From Pedobacter sp. KBW06 (GTDB lineage: Bacteria > Bacteroidota > Bacteroidia > Sphingobacteriales > Sphingobacteriaceae), in contig NZ_QAJL01000004.1 in NCBI RefSeq assembly GCF_003852525.1, forward strand, positions 221,064 to 285,063: a DNA stretch of 64,000 nt, written 5' to 3'. Shown piece by piece: positions 359-18,405 of the stretch. The notes beneath the pieces are model-generated. The model had not been told where the DNA came from and made no database searches. It worked only from the letters and a program-made list of their open reading frames with translations. Every line of letters begins with the position of its first letter. Position 1 is the stretch's first letter. The position numbers and the translations under genes were made by a program.

Positions 359-430
359 TAGCCCGTAGGGGAATCGAACCCCTGTTTCCAGAATGAAAAT
401 CTGGCGTCCTCACCCCTAGACGAACGGGCC
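359..430 (-). tRNA. tRNA-Glu (TTC), copy 2
   Basis: The minus strand folds as a full cloverleaf: acceptor GGCCCGT/ACGGGCT, anticodon arm CCAGA-TTTTCAT-TCTGG giving anticodon TTC (Glu), and T-arm with GTTCGAT. The 3' CCA is not encoded here. The gene is identical to the copy at 593-664. It is the promoter-distal member of the Glu/fMet/Glu/fMet array. Confidence 0.97.
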
Positions 431-470
431 ATTTTAGATTGCCTTAACCTTTACAGGTTACGAACCTAAT

Positions 471-546
<76 letters not shown>

Positions 547-592
547 CTATTCCTTTTTAAAACTTCACTAAGCCTCTGCTTAATGATTACTG

Positions 593-664
593 TAGCCCGT
601 AGGGGAATCGAACCCCTGTTTCCAGAATGAAAATCTGGCGTCCTCACCCCTAGACGAACGGGCC
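593..664 (-). tRNA. tRNA-Glu (TTC), copy 1
   Basis: Same 72-nt sequence as 359-430, with anticodon TTC. About 12 bases of 5' flank (GGCC-proximal TCTAAAAT side) are shared between the two copies before the spacers diverge, which indicates tandem duplication of a Glu-fMet unit. Confidence 0.97.
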
Positions 665-705
665 ATTTTAGAAGCGCCTTAATCTTATTAAGATCACGGC
701 TTCTT

Positions 706-781
<76 letters not shown>

Positions 782-7203: not shown

Positions 7204-7207
7204 CAGT

Positions 7208-7315
7208 GCTTATAGAGAAAGACGGAGGGATTAGACCCTGCGAAGTCTTAGCAACCTGTGCTTACAAGGTGCTACATTCTACTGGAACCGGACCATTGGC
7301 TCCCGAAAGATAAGT
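7208..7315 (+). promoter_or_regulatory. SAM-I (S-box) riboswitch upstream of metH
   Basis: The core is recognisable: P1 from CTTAT (7209-7213) with ATAAG (7310-7314), the conserved GGAGGGA followed by GACCCTG, then GAAGTCTTAGCAACC, and a 3' side ending CTCCCGAAAGATAAG. These match the SAM-I consensus, and the position before methionine-synthesis genes fits. SAM binding would lower metH-metF expression. The 116-nt expression platform offers competing pairings (AAAGTC 7317-7322 with GACTTT 7335-7340, or AGTCAA 7319-7324 with TTGACT 7353-7358). No T-run terminator is clear. Confidence 0.88.
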
Positions 7316-7431
7316 TAAAGTCAATCCTATACCGGACTTTTCAATAAGCTTTTTGACTGCGTATAAAATAGTAACCAGTATGATATTCATACCCGGAAGC
7401 TCTTTTCTTACGCGTTACCGGAGAAAACAAA

Positions 7432-10400
7432 ATGGACATTAGAGCAGAGTTAGAGAAACGCATATTGATTATTGATGGTGCCATGGGAACCATGATTCAG
7501 CGTTATATCCTGACAGAAGAAGATTTTAGAGGAGAGCGGTTTAAAGATCACCCATGTGATGTTAAAGGCAACAATGATTTGCTGAACCTCACACGCCCTG
7601 ACATCATTAAAGCAATACACACCGAATACCTTAAGGCCGGTGCAGATATTATTGAAACCAATACTTTTAGTACCCAGCGCATTTCACTGGCAGATTACCA
7701 GATGGAAGAGTTGGATTATGAAATGAGTTTTGCCGGTGCAAAGATTGCACGCGAAGCGGTAGACGAATTCATGGCCGAAAATCCGGACAGAAGGTCTTTC
7801 GTGGCTGGTGCCGTTGGTCCAACCAACAGGACACTTTCCATCTCACCGGATGTGAACGATCCCGGATATAGGGCATTAACTTTCGATGAACTCGTAGATG
7901 CCTACGACCAGCAGGTGCGCGGATTGGTTGATGGCGGTTCCGATCTTCTATTAATTGAAACCATCTTTGATACCTTAAATGCCAAAGCTGCCATATTTTC
8001 TATTAAAAAATATGAAAAAGAGATTGGCAGAACGATAGACATCATGATCTCCGGAACCATTACTGACGCTTCAGGAAGGACCCTATCCGGACAAACTGTG
8101 GAAGCTTTCTTAAATTCGGTGATCCATGCCAACCCGATCAGCATAGGCTTTAACTGTGCACTGGGTGCCAAAGACATGAGGCCACACATTGAAGAGCTTT
8201 CCGCCAAGGCGACTTGTTACGTATCCGCCTACCCCAATGCAGGTTTACCGAACGAGTTTGGTGCCTATGATGAGATGCCTCATGAAACAGCGCATTTAGT
8301 AGAAGATTTTATACAACACGGATTTGTGAATATCGTGGGTGGTTGTTGTGGCACTACGCCTGAGCATATCAGCTGTATTGCTGCCAAAGCCAAAAAAGTT
8401 AGCCCAAGAAAAATCGCTGAAGTAGCCCCATACTTGCGTCTAAGCGGTCTGGAACCCGTAACTATCACCCCGGAAAGCATTTTTGTCAACATTGGTGAAA
8501 GAACAAACATCACCGGATCCCCTAAATTTTCAAAACTTATTTTAGGTGGCGATTATGAAGCTGCCCTTACTGTTGCCCGTCAACAGGTAGAAGGCGGCGC
8601 CCAGGTAATCGACGTAAATATGGATGAAGGGATGTTGGACGGAGAAGCGGCAATGGTCAAGTTCTTAAACCTGATCGCTTCTGAACCGGATATTTCCAAA
8701 CTTCCAATCATGGTCGACTCTTCCAAATGGAGCGTAATTGAGGCCGGATTGAAATGTTTACAGGGAAAAGGAATCGTCAACTCCATCTCCCTGAAAGAAG
8801 GAGAAGAAAAATTTAAAGAAAGTGCCCTTAAAATCATGAATTATGGCGCCGCTGTAGTCGTGATGGCTTTTGATGAGCAAGGACAGGCAGATAACTTTGA
8901 AAGAAGAAAAGAAATCTGTAAGCGCTCTTATGATATTTTAGTGAATGAAGTCGGATTCCCTGCGGAAGACATCATATTTGATCCAAATATCCTGACCGTA
9001 GCAACCGGTTTGGAAGAACACAACAACTATGCAGTAGATTTTATTAATGCTACCCGATGGATCAAAGAAAACCTGCCTTACGCGAAAGTAAGTGGAGGAG
9101 TTTCCAATATATCTTTCTCTTTCAGGGGGAATAATACCGTGAGAGAGGCCATGCACTCTGCATTTCTGTACCATGCCATTAAAGCAGGTCTGGATATGGG
9201 GATTGTAAACGCCGGAATGCTGGAAGTTTACCAGGAAATACCACCGGAACTTCTGGAACGTGTGGAAGATGTATTGCTCAACCGCAGAGAAGATGCTACA
9301 GAAAGACTGGTAGAATTTGCAGATACCATTAAATCTAAGGGGAAAGAGATTGTCAGAGATGAGGAATGGAGAAAAGAAAGCGTAGAAAGCAGACTGTCCC
9401 ATTCCCTGGTAAAGGGAATTATAGAGTATTTAGATGCCGATGTAGAAGAAGCCAGACAGAAATACCCTAAACCAATACATGTGATTGAAGGTCCGTTAAT
9501 GGACGGAATGAACATCGTTGGAGATCTTTTTGGAGCAGGAAAAATGTTTCTTCCTCAGGTGGTGAAATCTGCCAGGGTAATGAAAAAAGCTGTAGCTTAT
9601 CTCCTTCCTTTCATTGAGCAGGAAAAACTGGACAACCCCGACGGAAAAGCAAGTTCATCTGCAGGAAGAGTATTGATGGCTACTGTAAAAGGGGATGTTC
9701 ATGACATCGGAAAAAATATTGTAGGCGTAGTATTAGCCTGTAATAACTTCGAGATCGTAGATCTTGGTGTCATGGTCCCTGCACAAACCATCATTCAGAA
9801 AGCCAAAGAAATTAATGCGGATATCATTGGATTAAGTGGTCTGATTACCCCATCACTTGACGAAATGGTACACTTTGCCAAAGAAATGGAACGCGAAGGC
9901 TTTACCATTCCCCTGATCATCGGCGGTGCCACCACCTCCAGAATTCATGCGGCAGTAAAAGTGGCTCCGAACTATTCAGGCCCTGCCATTCACGTATTGG
10001 ATGCTTCCAGAAGTGTAACGGTATGCAGTACGCTGATGAATGAAGAAACCAGAGGTCCTTATATTGAAGGCATCAAAAAAGAATACGATAAAGCAAGAGA
10101 AGCACACTTAAACAAGCGATCTGATAAACGTTTTAAGACTTTAGAAGAGGCCAGAAAAGATCAGTTTAAGATCGATCTTGACCTGGTTGCTCCGGCTCCT
10201 GCATTTACCGGAACAAAAGTATTTGAAGACTACCCACTGGCAGAACTGGTTCCGTATATCGACTGGACACCATTCTTCCATACCTGGGAGCTTCGCGGCA
10301 GCTATCCTAAAATATTCAACGATAAGTTGGTTGGTGATGAGGCAAAAAAACTATTTGATGATGCACAGACACTGCTAAAAAGAATTATCGATGAGAAACT

Positions 10401-12154: not shown

Positions 12155-12586
12155 ATGAAAAGAATCATGTTACTGGCAATTGTAATGACCGGCACTTTTG
12201 CTGCCTGCACTACCCTGAAACCCGGAACGATAGGAAATGGCGGATTATCTCAACTGGGAGGAACCTGGGAACTGAACTACATCTCTGGTCCGAGAATAGC
12301 TTTTAATGGTCTATATCCTGCAACAAAACCAACTATTACCTTTGATGTCACAGGGAAGAAATTAAGCGGAAATACCAGCTGTAATTCTTTCTCAGGCACT
12401 TTAATTGCAGACGACACTACCGTCAATTTCACACATCCGCTAGCCATGACAAAAATGGCCTGCCCCGGTGAAGGAGAGGCCACTTTTCTGGAAATGTTAA
12501 AAAAAGCAAGTACTTATTCTGTAAGTGACAGCACGCTTAACTTTATGATGGGCGATATTGCCATCATGCGCTTTAGTAAAAAGTAG
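12155..12586 (+). CDS. META/HslJ-like domain lipoprotein
   Basis: This is a 143-residue lipoprotein: a signal peptide with lipobox TFAAC (Cys18), then one META domain. META signatures are the opening GTWELNYISG, GNTSCNSFSGT in the middle, and MTKMACPG...FLEMLKKASTYSV near the end. Relatives include E. coli HslJ, linked to heat and novobiocin resistance, but the molecular function is unclear. Expression may depend on the inverted repeat just upstream. Its last 14 bases overlap the 3' end of thrC on the other strand. Confidence 0.9.
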   Translation: MKRIMLLAIVMTGTFAACTTLKPGTIGNGGLSQLGGTWELNYISGPRIAFNGLYPATKPTITFDVTGKKLSGNTSCNSFSGTLIADDTTVNFTHPLAMTKMACPGEGEATFLEMLKKASTYSVSDSTLNFMMGDIAIMRFSKK

Positions 12587-13883
12587 TCAGATAGTTTTTA
12601 AAAGAACCATACTCCGTATCCATCTTTTCAGCATGTTTTAATTTAGCAGTCAGCTCCTGCACCTGTGCGGGGACTTGAATTTTGCTGCTCATCTCTTCCG
12701 AAAAGACATCTGGAAACTTACAGGCATGTGCCGTAGATAAAAACACCCCCGTGGCATTTTCCTGGGGGTTTTCCTTGTTATAATCTTCCAGCGCCAACCA
12801 GGCAATGGCAGTATGCGGACAAGCGATATATGCAAACCGATCATAGATCGAATGAATTCCTTCTAAGGTTTCTTCATCGGTATAACTATAACTTTTCAAT
12901 ACCTCCTGCAAAGCAGCTTTATCCTGATTAAAGAGGTCCATGATCCTTACCCAATTACTTGGGGCACCTACGTCCATGGCATTGGCATAAGTCTGCACAG
13001 AAGGTCTTGTTTCGTATATCCCTGTTTTCAAATACCTGGGAACAGTATCGTTTACATTCGTAGCAGCTATAAACTGTTTTACAGGAAGTCCCATCTTATA
13101 GGCCAGTAATCCGGCAGCAATGTTTCCAAAATTACCACTGGGCACGGAAAATATCACTTCTTTTTTTCCTGCCCTGCGGAGTTGCGCATAAGCATTGAAA
13201 TAATACAAAGTCTGAGGGATCAGCCTGGAAATATTGATAGAATTAGCAGAAGTCAGACGGAGTTTGCGATTCAATTCCTCATCCGCAAATGCCTGTTTCA
13301 CCAAATGCTGACAATCATCAAAAGTTCCCTCCACTTCTATGGCATGAATGTTCTGACCATTCGTGCACAATTGCAATTCCTGAATTTCACTCACTTTCCC
13401 TTTTGGATAAAGAATGGTTACCCTGGTATTCGGTACCCCAAGAAACCCTAATGCCACCGCTCCTCCTGTATCACCGGAAGTCGCAACCAGAACATCCAGT
13501 AATTGCTCTCCATCTTTCAGGAAATAAGCCATAATCCGGCTCATGAACCTGGCTCCAAAATCTTTAAAAGCGAGTGAAGGGCCATGAAATAGTTCCAATA
13601 CATAGGTCTCGGCTTCAAGTGGTACCACTGGTGCGTCGAAATTAAATGCCTCGTCAATGATCTTTTGCAAATCTTCGGCTGGAATAGCATGATCCAATAA
13701 TGCTGAAGCTACCTTGAAAGCAATCTGTGGTAAAGTATACTGATCGATTTGTTGAATAAACTCCTGATCCAATACCGGAATATTTACCGGCATGTACAAG
13801 CCTTTATCCAAAGGCATGCTGTTAAAAACAGCGGTAGGAAAGTCTACGTTTAAATCGTGATTATTAGTACTATATAGTTTCAT
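12573..13883 (-). CDS. thrC: Threonine synthase
   Basis: ThrC converts O-phosphohomoserine to threonine with PLP. The 436-residue protein has the PLP lysine in SLAFKDFGARFM (about residue 112), the phosphate-binding TSGDTGGAV and the later SVPSGNFGNIAAG. It is the last gene of thrA-thrB-thrC, 7 bp after the thrB stop codon. Its 3' end overlaps the convergent META lipoprotein gene by 14 bp, and I see no terminator there. Confidence 0.97.
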   Translation of the reverse strand: MKLYSTNNHDLNVDFPTAVFNSMPLDKGLYMPVNIPVLDQEFIQQIDQYTLPQIAFKVASALLDHAIPAEDLQKIIDEAFNFDAPVVPLEAETYVLELFHGPSLAFKDFGARFMSRIMAYFLKDGEQLLDVLVATSGDTGGAVALGFLGVPNTRVTILYPKGKVSEIQELQLCTNGQNIHAIEVEGTFDDCQHLVKQAFADEELNRKLRLTSANSINISRLIPQTLYYFNAYAQLRRAGKKEVIFSVPSGNFGNIAAGLLAYKMGLPVKQFIAATNVNDTVPRYLKTGIYETRPSVQTYANAMDVGAPSNWVRIMDLFNQDKAALQEVLKSYSYTDEETLEGIHSIYDRFAYIACPHTAIAWLALEDYNKENPQENATGVFLSTAHACKFPDVFSEEMSSKIQVPAQVQELTAKLKHAEKMDTEYGSFKNYLTTFY

Positions 13884-13890
13884 AATGGGG

Positions 13891-14826
13891 TTAATCTAAA
13901 ATAACAGGACCTTTTTTATTTACTTCGGATACAAAAGACAAGCTATTGATGCCAATGCCTTTTAAATGCTGCTGCAGCTTCTGAGTGATTGCCCTGGCTA
14001 TTGCCTCGTCTTTTGTTAAAGCAAAAACCGAAGGACCAGAACCGGAAATACCAAAACCCGTAGCTCCTGTTTTCATAGCCAGACTTCTTAGTTTATAGAA
14101 ATCAGGGATTAAAATAGAGCGCGTAGGCTCTACCAGAATATCGGTCATACTTCTGCCAATCAGGTCATGATCTTTCAGAAACAAACCACTTACCAGACCC
14201 GCAACATTTCCCCATTGGGTAACCGCATCTTTTAAAAACACTTTAGAACGAATCATCTGTCTGGCATCCTTAGTAGGCACATCGACTTCCGGGTATACAA
14301 TAGCTGCATACAGATCATCAGGATGTGGTAAACTGATAATGTCCAGCGGTTGATAGCTTCTGATCAATACAAAGCCTCCCAAAAGCGCCGGAGCCACATT
14401 ATCAGCATGTCCGTAACCGCAGGCCAGTTCCTCTCCTTTCATCGCAAAAGGAACAAGTTCTTTATTGGTCAACAAATTATCAAACAAGGTATTTACAGCA
14501 AATAAGCCGGCAACGGTACTGGCCGAACTTGATCCCAACCCACTGCCTATCGGCATCTTCTTATGCAATTCAATTTCTATTCCCGTATCCGGTTTCCCAA
14601 TATGGTTCAGGTAATGCTGGACACTGGCACTTACCGTGTTTTTCTTTGGATCCAGTGGCAACCGCCCATCATCACCAGTGATCTTTGTGATCTTGATGCC
14701 GGGAGTTTCCGTTAACTTCATAATAACTTCATCACCGGGTTCATTTACCGCAAAACCCAGAACATCATATCCACAAACTACATTGGCAACTGTCGCTGGG
14801 GCAAAAACTCTTATAGACTCTTTCAT
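13891..14826 (-). CDS. thrB: Homoserine kinase
   Basis: ThrB is a GHMP-family kinase phosphorylating L-homoserine. The 311-residue protein has the ATP loop MPIGSGLGSSSAST (about residue 90) and the C-terminal GHMP motif TGATGFGISGSGPS. Its ATG overlaps the thrA stop codon as ATGA, so translation is probably coupled to thrA. It is part of the attenuated thr operon. Confidence 0.97.
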   Translation of the reverse strand: MKESIRVFAPATVANVVCGYDVLGFAVNEPGDEVIMKLTETPGIKITKITGDDGRLPLDPKKNTVSASVQHYLNHIGKPDTGIEIELHKKMPIGSGLGSSSASTVAGLFAVNTLFDNLLTNKELVPFAMKGEELACGYGHADNVAPALLGGFVLIRSYQPLDIISLPHPDDLYAAIVYPEVDVPTKDARQMIRSKVFLKDAVTQWGNVAGLVSGLFLKDHDLIGRSMTDILVEPTRSILIPDFYKLRSLAMKTGATGFGISGSGPSVFALTKDEAIARAITQKLQQHLKGIGINSLSFVSEVNKKGPVILD

Positions 14827-17270
14827 CGTTTACCTACATTAATTATATCTGCAAAAACACCCGCAGCGGTTACTTCCGCACCAGCACCAGGCCCTTTAAC
14901 CACCAATGGACGGTCTCTATACCGGTCTGTGGTAAAAGAAATAATATTGTCACTTCCGGAAAGCATGTAGAAAGGATGACCATCATCTACCATTTGTAAG
15001 GTGATCATTACTTTTCCTGCTTCCAGCTTCCCGATGTATCTTAGCACTTTATTACTTGAGGCAGCTTCCTGCTTCAGTTTCTCAAAATAGTCTGTATTGT
15101 TTTCCAACTCCTGATAGAAATCTGCCACGGTAGCTGCAGCCAAACAAGCCGGTGGGAGCATACTTTCAATCTCAATATCACTTTCTTCCAATGGATAACC
15201 GGCGTCACGGGCCAGAATGAGCATCTTTCTCATAAAGTCTTTCCCGTTCAGATCATCTCTCGGATCTGGCTCCGTATATCCTTTATCCTGCGCTTCTTTC
15301 ACCACTTCATGAAACAATTTATCTCCTTTATAATTATTGAAGATATATGAGATCGTACCTGATAGAATGGCTTCAATCCGATCTATCCGGTCGCCACTCA
15401 TCATCAGGTCTTTTAAAGTCCGGATGATCGGCAAACCTGCACCCACATTTGTTTCATAGTAAAAATCGACTCCATATTTTCTCGCCGCCTGTTTAAAAGC
15501 AACGTATTGTTCATAGTCTGCAGAGTTCCCGATCTTATTACAAGTCACCACGGAAATACTGGATTGAAGCACATCCTGATAAAACTGAATCGGATTATGG
15601 CTGGCGGTATTGTCTACAAACACACAGTTCGGTAGATTCATCGCTTTCATCTGTTTGATAAATACCGCTAAATCTGCCGGTTCACCATGTGTTTCCAGAT
15701 CTTTCTCCCAGCTGCTTAAAGCAATGCCTTCTGCATTTTGGTACATTTTACGGGTATTACTTACGCCCATCACTTTTACCTGAAGGTCGTTGTTGGTCGC
15801 TAAAAAGTCCATCTGAGCCTCCAGCTGTGTGAATAACGTCTTTCCGATATTACCAGTCCCCAGACAAAATACGTGTAAAGTTCTTTTCAGATTAGCATAA
15901 AAAGCATCATGGACCGCGTTTACTGCCTTTGAAAGGTCAGGCTTGGAGATAATCACAGAAATATTATACTCTGAAGAACCTTGTGCGATTGCGCGTACAT
16001 TCACACCATTCCTTCCCAAAGCATTAAATAACTTCCCTGACATCCCCGGCGTCTTTTTCATATTCTCCCCTACAATCGCCAGGGCAGCCAGTCCGTTTTC
16101 CACTTCAGGATATTCCAGTTTGCGCGCCTGAAGCTCCAGTTCGAATTCCTTATTGATCAGGGCAAGTGCTTTCAGGGCATCGGCAGGTTTCACTGCAAAA
16201 GTAATGCTGTGCTCCGAAGAAGACTGGGTAATCAGGATGATATTGATTTGCTCCCGTGATAGTAAGGAGAATAACCTTCCGCTAAAACCGGCTTTTCCCA
16301 CCATTCCACTTCCTGTAAGGTTCAGCACACTGATCTCATCAATAGAAGAAATCCCTTTGATCGGCAATTTCGAAACACTGGTTCCATGTTTGATATAGGT
16401 TCCAGGAAAGTCTACATTGAACGTATTTTTAATCACAATAGGGATTCTCTTTAAAAATGCAGGGATCATTGTTGGAGGATAGATCACCTTTGCACCAAAA
16501 TAAGAAAGCTCCATCGCTTCGGTATAACTCAGCTCCGGCAAAGAGAACGCTTTTTTTACCATTCTCGGATCTGCAGTCAACATTCCGTCTACATCTGTCC
16601 AGATCTGAATCTCCGCTGCATTTAACGCAGAGCCCCAGATTGCAGCCGTGTAGTCACTTCCACCTCTCCCAAGAGTAGTGATTCTGCCCTCATCGTTGCT
16701 GGCAATAAAGCCGGTCACAAACAATAGCTTATCCGCATTACTCTCCTGGAAATCCCTGATCAGGGTCTCTGTGAGATAGGTATTCACTTTTGCCTGTCCG
16801 AAATTATGATCTGTTTTAATCAGCTCTGATCCGTCCACATAAAGGGCGTTCGGGAAAGTTTGCCTGGCAATATGACTGATCATCACCGTAGAACAACGTT
16901 CACCGTAACTTAAGATCAGGTCCTTCGTCTGCAGACTTAGCTCCCGAAGGTTATAAACCGACTGTAAGATTTCTTCCAGCTCATTAAAATAGATTTTAAG
17001 CTTGGTCAGTACCGGGTTCTGAGCGTTCGCAGGCAATAAAGCCCGGATCACATCAAAGTGTTTTTTCTCAATTGTTTTTAACTCCTCGCTATAATCCCTA
17101 GCCTGCCCTGCGTTTTCTGCCATCTCGACCAGGGCATTGGTTACCCCACTCATGGCCGATAAGACGACAATAGGATTTTCAGCGCCTTGCTGATCCTTAA
17201 GGATACTTAACAATGCACTGATGCTTTGCAAAGAACCGACTGATGTACCTCCAAATTTTAAAATATTCAT
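14823..17270 (-). CDS. thrA: Bifunctional aspartate kinase/homoserine dehydrogenase I
   Basis: ThrA catalyses the first and third steps from aspartate to threonine. The 815-residue fusion has an aspartokinase domain (MNILKFGGTSVGS at the N-terminus; TLGRGGSDYTA about 200), two ACT-type regulatory segments (about 315-460) and a homoserine dehydrogenase domain (CLGTGNIGKTL about 467; later GAGLPIIRTLKDL). Feedback control by threonine is typical of the family. Its start codon lies 11 bp downstream of the T-run of the attenuator terminator, so transcription into thrA depends on antitermination. Confidence 0.97.
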   Translation of the reverse strand: MNILKFGGTSVGSLQSISALLSILKDQQGAENPIVVLSAMSGVTNALVEMAENAGQARDYSEELKTIEKKHFDVIRALLPANAQNPVLTKLKIYFNELEEILQSVYNLRELSLQTKDLILSYGERCSTVMISHIARQTFPNALYVDGSELIKTDHNFGQAKVNTYLTETLIRDFQESNADKLLFVTGFIASNDEGRITTLGRGGSDYTAAIWGSALNAAEIQIWTDVDGMLTADPRMVKKAFSLPELSYTEAMELSYFGAKVIYPPTMIPAFLKRIPIVIKNTFNVDFPGTYIKHGTSVSKLPIKGISSIDEISVLNLTGSGMVGKAGFSGRLFSLLSREQINIILITQSSSEHSITFAVKPADALKALALINKEFELELQARKLEYPEVENGLAALAIVGENMKKTPGMSGKLFNALGRNGVNVRAIAQGSSEYNISVIISKPDLSKAVNAVHDAFYANLKRTLHVFCLGTGNIGKTLFTQLEAQMDFLATNNDLQVKVMGVSNTRKMYQNAEGIALSSWEKDLETHGEPADLAVFIKQMKAMNLPNCVFVDNTASHNPIQFYQDVLQSSISVVTCNKIGNSADYEQYVAFKQAARKYGVDFYYETNVGAGLPIIRTLKDLMMSGDRIDRIEAILSGTISYIFNNYKGDKLFHEVVKEAQDKGYTEPDPRDDLNGKDFMRKMLILARDAGYPLEESDIEIESMLPPACLAAATVADFYQELENNTDYFEKLKQEAASSNKVLRYIGKLEAGKVMITLQMVDDGHPFYMLSGSDNIISFTTDRYRDRPLVVKGPGAGAEVTAAGVFADIINVGKR

Positions 17271-17280
17271 AATTTACGGT

Positions 17281-17323
17281 TAAAAAAAAAGCGCCTTCCC
17301 CGATTAGAGGAAGGCGCTTTTTG
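17281..17323 (-). terminator. Attenuator terminator of the thr operon
   Basis: On the minus strand AAGCGCCTTCC pairs with GGAAGGCGCTT around an 8-9 nt loop, followed by a run of nine or more T. It sits between the leader peptide and thrA. The 5' arm GCCTTCCTC (17307-17315) can instead pair over nine positions (one G-U) with GAGGGAGGC in the leader reading frame (17358-17366), giving the competing antiterminator. Confidence 0.88.
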
Positions 17324-17350
17324 TGGTTTTTAGTTTTTTATTTTTACCCA

Positions 17351-17419
17351 TTAGCTAGCCTCCCTCCGAGATATCCCGGTGGTGGTAATAATGGAAATAA
17401 TGGTTGAATTATTAAACAT
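17351..17419 (-). CDS. thr operon leader peptide (22 aa, Thr/Ile-rich)
   Basis: The short frame encodes MFNNSTIISIITTTGIS followed by RREAS and TAA. Nine of 22 residues are Thr or Ile, the two amino acids made from the pathway; ACC-ACC-ACC and paired ATT codons sit in the middle. The antiterminator segment (17358-17366) covers codons 18-21. A ribosome reaching the stop codon would mask it and let the terminator form. A ribosome stalled at Thr or Ile codons would leave it free to pair with the terminator arm. This is the logic of E. coli thrL, but the peptide sequence is different. Confidence 0.85.
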   Translation of the reverse strand: MFNNSTIISIITTTGISRREAS

Positions 17420-17449
17420 TGTATTTTTTACACTTACTGTGCTCTGACG

Positions 17450-17481
17450 TAAAGTAAAGTTATATTTTTCTAATTAGCAAA
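17450..17481 (-). promoter_or_regulatory. Possible promoter of the thr operon
   Basis: On the minus strand TTTG (17478-17481) is followed by TAACTTTA (17455-17462, spacer only 15 bp) or TTACTTTA (17450-17457, spacer 20 bp). Neither combination is a perfect match to TTTG-N19-21-TAnnTTTG. The position, 30-40 bp before the leader ATG, is right. Confidence 0.35.
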
Positions 17482-17745: not shown

Positions 17746-18267
17746 TTAATATTTGTAAGGATACAAATCAAAAATAACAGGATTTATAGCATCCAACCCT
17801 ACTTTTAACAATTGCGCTGTTGCTGCCTCCGGATAACCTTCATCAAGTAAAGATTCAAACTCCTGAAACAGGAAAGCGGCCTGAATAAATTCCGGAAAGT
17901 TTATTTGAAGACTCAAAAAATCTGACTTAGCATCATATTCCCCCTGATCATGGTCGTAAAATAAAACACAGCCCGAAGTTCGGTCAAGAAACCATCCATC
18001 TCCCTGACCTGAACTGCCAATCATCCACAGGGAGGAATATAAATCAGAATAGTTCTCTTCTATGTAACGATTCTCTTTTAAAGCTTTTTCATATCCAAAC
18101 AATTCAATATCAGGAGTAATTTCAAGCCCCTCATACGTCGAGATATAGCACAGATAATGAAGATCAGATATCGGAACTTCATCCGTGTTTTCAATTTTAG
18201 ATTTCCGTATTTTTAAGAAATGTAACAATTCTTCAATTCTTTTCTTCACAAATAATGTACTGCTCAT
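17746..18267 (-). CDS. SUKH (SMI1/KNR4)-like immunity protein
   Basis: The 173-residue soluble protein has features of the SUKH superfamily: an N-terminal helix, an LFGYEKAL segment, then WMIGSSGQGDGWFLDRTSG leading to VLFYDHDQGEY, the typical signature of the fold. A C-terminal helix (FLFQEFESLLDEG) follows. Bacterial SUKH proteins are usually immunity partners of polymorphic toxins. No toxin gene is present, so this would be an orphan. The ATG at 18267 follows a purine-rich AAAGAGAG; the frame extends to a TTG at 18315. It is isolated between housekeeping genes. Confidence 0.72.
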   Translation of the reverse strand: MSSTLFVKKRIEELLHFLKIRKSKIENTDEVPISDLHYLCYISTYEGLEITPDIELFGYEKALKENRYIEENYSDLYSSLWMIGSSGQGDGWFLDRTSGCVLFYDHDQGEYDAKSDFLSLQINFPEFIQAAFLFQEFESLLDEGYPEAATAQLLKVGLDAINPVIFDLYPYKY

Positions 18268-18405
18268 TCTCTCTTTATTGACATTAATATAATTCCTTTT
18301 TTCACTGCTCAACAACTATTCCAGCAACCGGTAAAAACGATAAATATGATCAATCCGTTCAAAAAATAATTACCCTAAAACAATTTCTTACCTTTACACC
18401 ATCAT

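Follow-up and report, generated by a model that had tools for sequence, protein, structure and literature searches.

Attenuation of transcription by a translated leader peptide is a textbook plan known from Escherichia coli, where the thrL leader controls the threonine operon thrABC. To our knowledge, there is little experimental work on attenuation in the Bacteroidota, a phylum that relies only weakly on Shine-Dalgarno signals. Vitreschak et al. in 2004 reportedly predicted attenuators of thr and other operons in a few members of the Bacteroidetes/Chlorobi, and Lopatovskaya et al. in 2010 are said to have made comparative attenuator predictions. Leader-like short frames have been noted in Bacteroides thetaiotaomicron (PMC7366714). 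For Flavobacterium psychrophilum, leader-peptide attenuation 5' of amino-acid operons has been proposed on the basis of RNA-seq and folding (PMC9723704); the species belongs to the phylum studied here, and the article's main text does not mention thrA. A literature search returned no description of a thr leader in the Sphingobacteriaceae, which is weak evidence of absence. What is found here is very probably the textbook plan itself, present throughout this family.

The window, that is, the whole stretch of 64,000 nucleotides that was analysed, comes from an 8.1 Mb genome. The element at 17282-17419 on its minus strand can be assigned with high confidence as a ribosome-mediated transcription attenuator of thrABC that is set by the supply of threonyl-tRNA and follows a three-helix plan like that of E. 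coli thrL. Computation established the parts of the attenuator and the alternative pairings open to them, as well as how far they are conserved and co-vary.

The thrABC operon and its leader frame

The spacing of the three threonine genes, all on the minus strand, is operon-like, with thrA as the first gene. The thrA product is a bifunctional aspartate kinase/homoserine dehydrogenase (14823-17270; NCBIfam NF006959, 1034 bits with a cut-off of 726). The gene overlaps by 4 nt with thrB, encoding homoserine kinase (13891-14826; NCBIfam NF002288 and TIGR00191, above cut-off), which is followed by thrC, encoding threonine synthase (12573-13883; NCBIfam TIGR00260, above cut-off). The closest named thrA is that of Pedobacter sp. 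B4-66, with 83% identity, and the close named relatives by thrA belong to Pedobacter, Parapedobacter, and Mucilaginibacter; the family is called Sphingobacteriaceae here on the strength of these relatives.

Upstream of thrA, the minus strand carries the leader frame MFNNSTIISIITTTGISRREAS at 17351-17419, stop codon included. Its letters agree with the preliminary description: 22 codons, among them four for Thr and five for Ile, with three ACC codons in tandem (Thr12-14, 17378-17386). The frame reaches nine Thr/Ile per 12 residues, the highest density among the 612 ATG frames of 12-40 amino acids in the window, where the runner-up has six. Together with the folding of the region 17270-17430 (z = -5.1 relative to shuffles), this density indicates that the leader element exceeds chance. 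A predicted promoter-like pair, TTTG-N21-TACTTTAC, lies at 17449-17481 on the same strand, 29 nt 5' of the leader ATG; this pattern match is similar to the -33/-7 type of the Bacteroidota, and the same kind of pattern occurs upstream of 38 of the 88 leaders in the family versus two in shuffled sequences. A search for the leader DNA among plasmids gave no match.

Other features of the window were recorded alongside. A 189-aa frame with a tentative TTG start and without an NCBIfam match precedes the leader (17746-18315, likewise minus strand). A SAM riboswitch (7207-7316, plus strand; Rfam RF00162, 61.9 bits) is located directly 5' of a metH-like gene at 7432, and four successive tRNA genes at 359-781 (minus strand) have two alternating scores and resemble a duplicated pair.

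Competing helices and the position of the ribosome

The leader stop codon, which ends at 17351, is separated by 28 nt from the start of a terminator stem at 17322. This intrinsic terminator (17282-17322, minus strand; helix 3:4) consists of the stem AAAAAGCGCCTTCCTC-TAATC-GGGGAAGGCGCTTTTT at 17322-17286, with 16 pairs, a GC core from 17317, and an energy of -26.3 kcal/mol on its own, and of a nine-T run at 17290-17282. About 11-12 nt separate the T-run from the thrA ATG at 17270. The terminator is as strong as previously described, but the T-run, which had been said to abut thrA, stands 11 nt away from it. A simple sigma-70/terminator scan missed the hairpin at 17282-17322 altogether, and negatives from that scan therefore carry no weight here.

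The 5' arm of the terminator contains segment 3, GCCTTCCTC (17315-17307), which is common to the terminator 3:4 and to an antiterminator, 2:3. In the latter, segment 3 pairs with segment 2, GAGGGAGGC (17366-17358), which coincides with leader codons 18-21. The nine-position complementarity claimed between these codons and the terminator arm is real and comprises eight Watson-Crick pairs and one G-U pair. For a transcript that ends at segment 3, the computed fold is the antiterminator, with an energy between about -20 and -23 kcal/mol. The preliminary description regarded this as a two-helix device, simpler than E. coli thrL; that simplicity does not hold, as a third helix is present in the minimum-energy fold. 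This protector hairpin, 1:2 (17347-17395, minus strand; -18.3 kcal/mol, z = -3.9), is made of the Ile and Thr codons and the surroundings of the stop codon, with Ile10-11 and Thr12-14 included in its 5' strand. The complete RNA has 1:2 together with 3:4 as its minimum-energy fold, and three mutually exclusive helices are computed in all.

Folds in which a ribosome with an assumed footprint of about 29 nt masks part of the leader, a check suggested in the preliminary description, relate these helices to translation. In a transcript that has only now completed segment 3, the antiterminator has a probability near 1 when the A-site is at any of codons 3-15; codons 16-17 are intermediate, and from codon 18 to the stop no antiterminator forms. 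The ACC codons 12-14 therefore sit where stalling helps and are the best-placed stall codons of the leader. Four of the five Ile codons are also well placed, whereas the last, codon 16, comes too late for a helpful stall.

From these structures we infer a course of events that runs from the transcript start through ribosome stalling to termination or read-through. RNA polymerase would make the leader RNA while a ribosome translates the leader. If charged tRNA-Thr is ample (the same may hold for tRNA-Ile), the ribosome would proceed to the stop codon and cover segment 2, so that the 3:4 terminator would form and transcription would stop before thrA. With scarce charged tRNA-Thr, the ribosome is predicted to stall at Thr12-14 and mask the 5' strand of the protector; segment 2 would then be left free to pair with segment 3, and the polymerase could enter thrABC. 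If the leader is not translated at all, 1:2 has time to fold ahead of the synthesis of segment 3, and the transcript would be expected to terminate.

Conservation in the Sphingobacteriaceae and the amino acid sensed

The regions 5' of thrA were surveyed in genomes of the same family and in named Pedobacter-type records, giving 89 distinct regions; three further loci (L057, L089, and L090) were left out because their thrA start motif was not recognised. A leader was defined as a frame with at least seven Thr/Ile in 12 residues and an ATG, GTG, or TTG start. By this definition, a Thr/Ile-rich leader is present in 88 of the 89 regions. Eleven regions appear leaderless if only ATG starts are admitted; ten of these are recovered with GTG or TTG, which leaves one true absence (L094). 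Three of the 88 leaders are of a terminator-less type considered below, and a terminator-like hairpin lies between leader and thrA in 84 of the 85 regions of the window's type. Relatives without the leader frame or the complementary segment had been named beforehand as the case that would speak against an attenuator, and this case did not occur in the family.

From lineage to lineage, segment 2 varies in step with the terminator arm. The window has GAGGGAGGC/GCCTTCCTC, and other lineages have CGGGAC/GTCCCG, CGGGGC/GCCCCG, ATCGGGAGC/GCTCCCGAT, or GAGGGGAG/CTTCCCTC. In a fixed MAFFT alignment, 71% of the cells for 2:3 are paired, but registers shift between lineages and blur such counts for 2:3 and 1:2 alike, and an alignment-free test of own versus cross pairing was therefore used. 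The duplex of segment 2 with its own arm has a mean energy of -12.8 kcal/mol versus -11.3 kcal/mol with the arms of other genomes; none of 20000 permutations is as good (z = -6.3, a value that overstates the independence of the evidence, since the genomes are kin). The terminator helix has changes on both sides at eight of 11 pairs among 78 relatives. The protector 1:2 has a mean z of -1.6 in relatives and is weak in some genera.

Two other features were tried and set aside. An inner 2:3 helix, in which TGGT pairs with ACCA 5' of the terminator, can be discerned by eye but is no better than slid registers. A translational role was considered for an SD-like GGAGG found in the 3' segment of the leader in 46 of 85 relatives, and no support for it was seen.

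These data bear on how the element should be read. The terminator could simply end an upstream transcript, with the leader frame a coincidence; a strong terminator is indeed present, and 17746 marks the end of an unassigned minus-strand frame. That frame, however, ends more than 400 nt upstream, and a coincidental frame would hardly be kept in 88 of 89 relatives with a tail that co-varies with the terminator arm, which makes this reading very improbable. Direct sensing of a metabolite or a tRNA by the RNA, as in a riboswitch or T-box, would be compatible with the position and the terminator, but it deserves next to no credence: no such Rfam family matches at the locus, where the best match is Thr_leader, and what is conserved is an open reading frame with many Thr codons and with its stop next to segment 2. 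The locus has the features expected of an attenuator, namely a short frame rich in the amino acids of the pathway, a terminator before the first gene and, by folding, an antiterminator that depends on the position of the ribosome. The leader-peptide attenuator of the preliminary description, in which the ribosome chooses between antiterminator and terminator, is thus supported by folds, conservation, and co-variation alike.

Which amino acid the attenuator senses is a separate question. Threonine and isoleucine had both been put forward as the signal. Every leader in the family has at least two Thr, with a mean of 6.0 (n = 88), whereas Ile, with a mean of 4.2, is found once or not at all in 12 of the 88. 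The Ile codons are therefore dispensable in relatives, and threonine emerges as the conserved signal; isoleucine would be a signal that depends on the lineage, plausible here and compatible with the sequence of the window. A bivalent attenuator, for which isoleucine starvation would signal as strongly as threonine starvation, as in the thr operon of E. coli, comes close to an even chance but falls a little short of it. The five Ile codons of MFNNSTIISIITTTGISRREAS, four of them positioned to give the antiterminator on a stall, and the mean of 4.2 Ile per leader in the family argue for it, as does the established fact that the products of ThrABC also supply isoleucine synthesis. On the other side stand the relatives that keep Thr with one Ile codon at most, the fifth Ile codon that comes too late, and a separate Ile/Leu/Val-rich leader at ilvE.

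Sister leaders and described attenuators

Attenuation looks like a general habit of the organism from which the window derives. The ilvE leader, MNLISTALIIVIINVILLLIIQRDKAL, lies directly upstream of ilvE-ilvD (L245:982-1065). The region upstream of hisG (L202) has a His-rich frame, MNQILNHHLHLHHRLSAMYM, with a hairpin, CATCGCC-TGTC-GGCGATG, that overlaps the end of the frame. Upstream of pheA, which encodes a prephenate dehydratase domain (L204), an aromatic leader, MKNVTTYWFGYFYYFSKSRD, ends in AGCCGGGACT, which corresponds to the terminator arm AGTCCCGGCC 5' of a T-run; this is another attenuator built on the plan of the thr leader. With these analogous leaders at hisG, pheA, and ilvE, the thr attenuator stands out less.

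Beyond the family, a Thr/Ile-rich leader without an intrinsic terminator precedes many thrA genes, at a distance of 70-115 nt and in a few cases more. These leaders have a GC-rich hairpin of 5-6 bp around the stop codon, in variants such as ACCCC/GGGGT, ACGGG/CCCGT, CAACCC/GGGTTG, and AACCCT/AGGGTT; no more than 24 nt beyond the hairpin comes [CT]ATAT, frequently as CATAT. The combination occurs in 36 of 127 regions, where shuffled sequences yield 1.1, and is absent from all 83 regions of the window's type. Examples are L157, L209, L138, L142, and some 30 more loci outside the family, together with L091-L093; in one of the 36, L217, the match lies outside the leader and looks like chance, and the usual element is found slightly further on. 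Eight terminator-less loci compared with Rfam up to E = 1 gave no match.

It is conceivable, though we lean somewhat against it, that the Bacteroidota share a phylum-wide threonine leader with two outputs: the terminator switch of the Sphingobacteriaceae and, in many Flavobacteriales, Cytophagales, and relatives, the stop-codon hairpin with CATAT, which would act by pausing, Rho, or translation. If so, the attenuator of the window would be one of two alternative outputs placed on one sensor before thrA. For specialists, the surprise may lie in the sister class that has no terminator.

The classic attenuation of the threonine operon is hereby placed in a large family of the Bacteroidota, where it is nearly universal in the sample. 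The result can be used for the annotation of thr leader peptides and for a Bacteroidota-aware threshold for the Rfam Thr_leader model, and the thr leader provides a ready system for testing the coupling of transcription and translation in this phylum.

Among described families, the closest is Rfam RF00506 (Thr_leader), which aligns end to end (model 1-118 of 118) with 17284-17412, directly 5' of thrA. The score of 41.1 bits does not reach the gathering score of 55 bits, and the element is thus not filed under RF00506, though it would work like a Thr_leader. End-to-end matches were also obtained at seven of the 12 other thrA loci scanned, at 32-49 bits and all below the cut-off. The leader peptide had been called unrelated to that of E. 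coli. It has no match in Pfam or to NCBIfam TIGR02077 (thr_lead_pep, cut-off 22.95 bits), which is in keeping with that claim, but the peptide of one relative matches thr_lead_pep weakly, at 11.9 bits and below the cut-off, and the RNA as a whole resembles Thr_leader as just described.

The comparison with E. coli thrL itself reveals mostly likeness. Both elements control thrABC, both have three helices, and the stall profiles of the masking folds are identical. The two leaders are Thr/Ile-rich, have 21-22 codons, and close with TTG followed by a few residues. The pairing of the leader tail with the terminator arm had been taken as part of a simpler layout here; in E. coli thrL, too, the final three codons (19-21, GGTGCGGGC) form a duplex with the terminator arm GCCCGCACC, and its energy of -18.7 kcal/mol is close to the -18.5 kcal/mol of the present element. 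The differences are the phylum and the peptide outside the Thr/Ile block. The likeness concerns 120 nt on which the same codons impose their form, and it may reflect either common descent or convergence.
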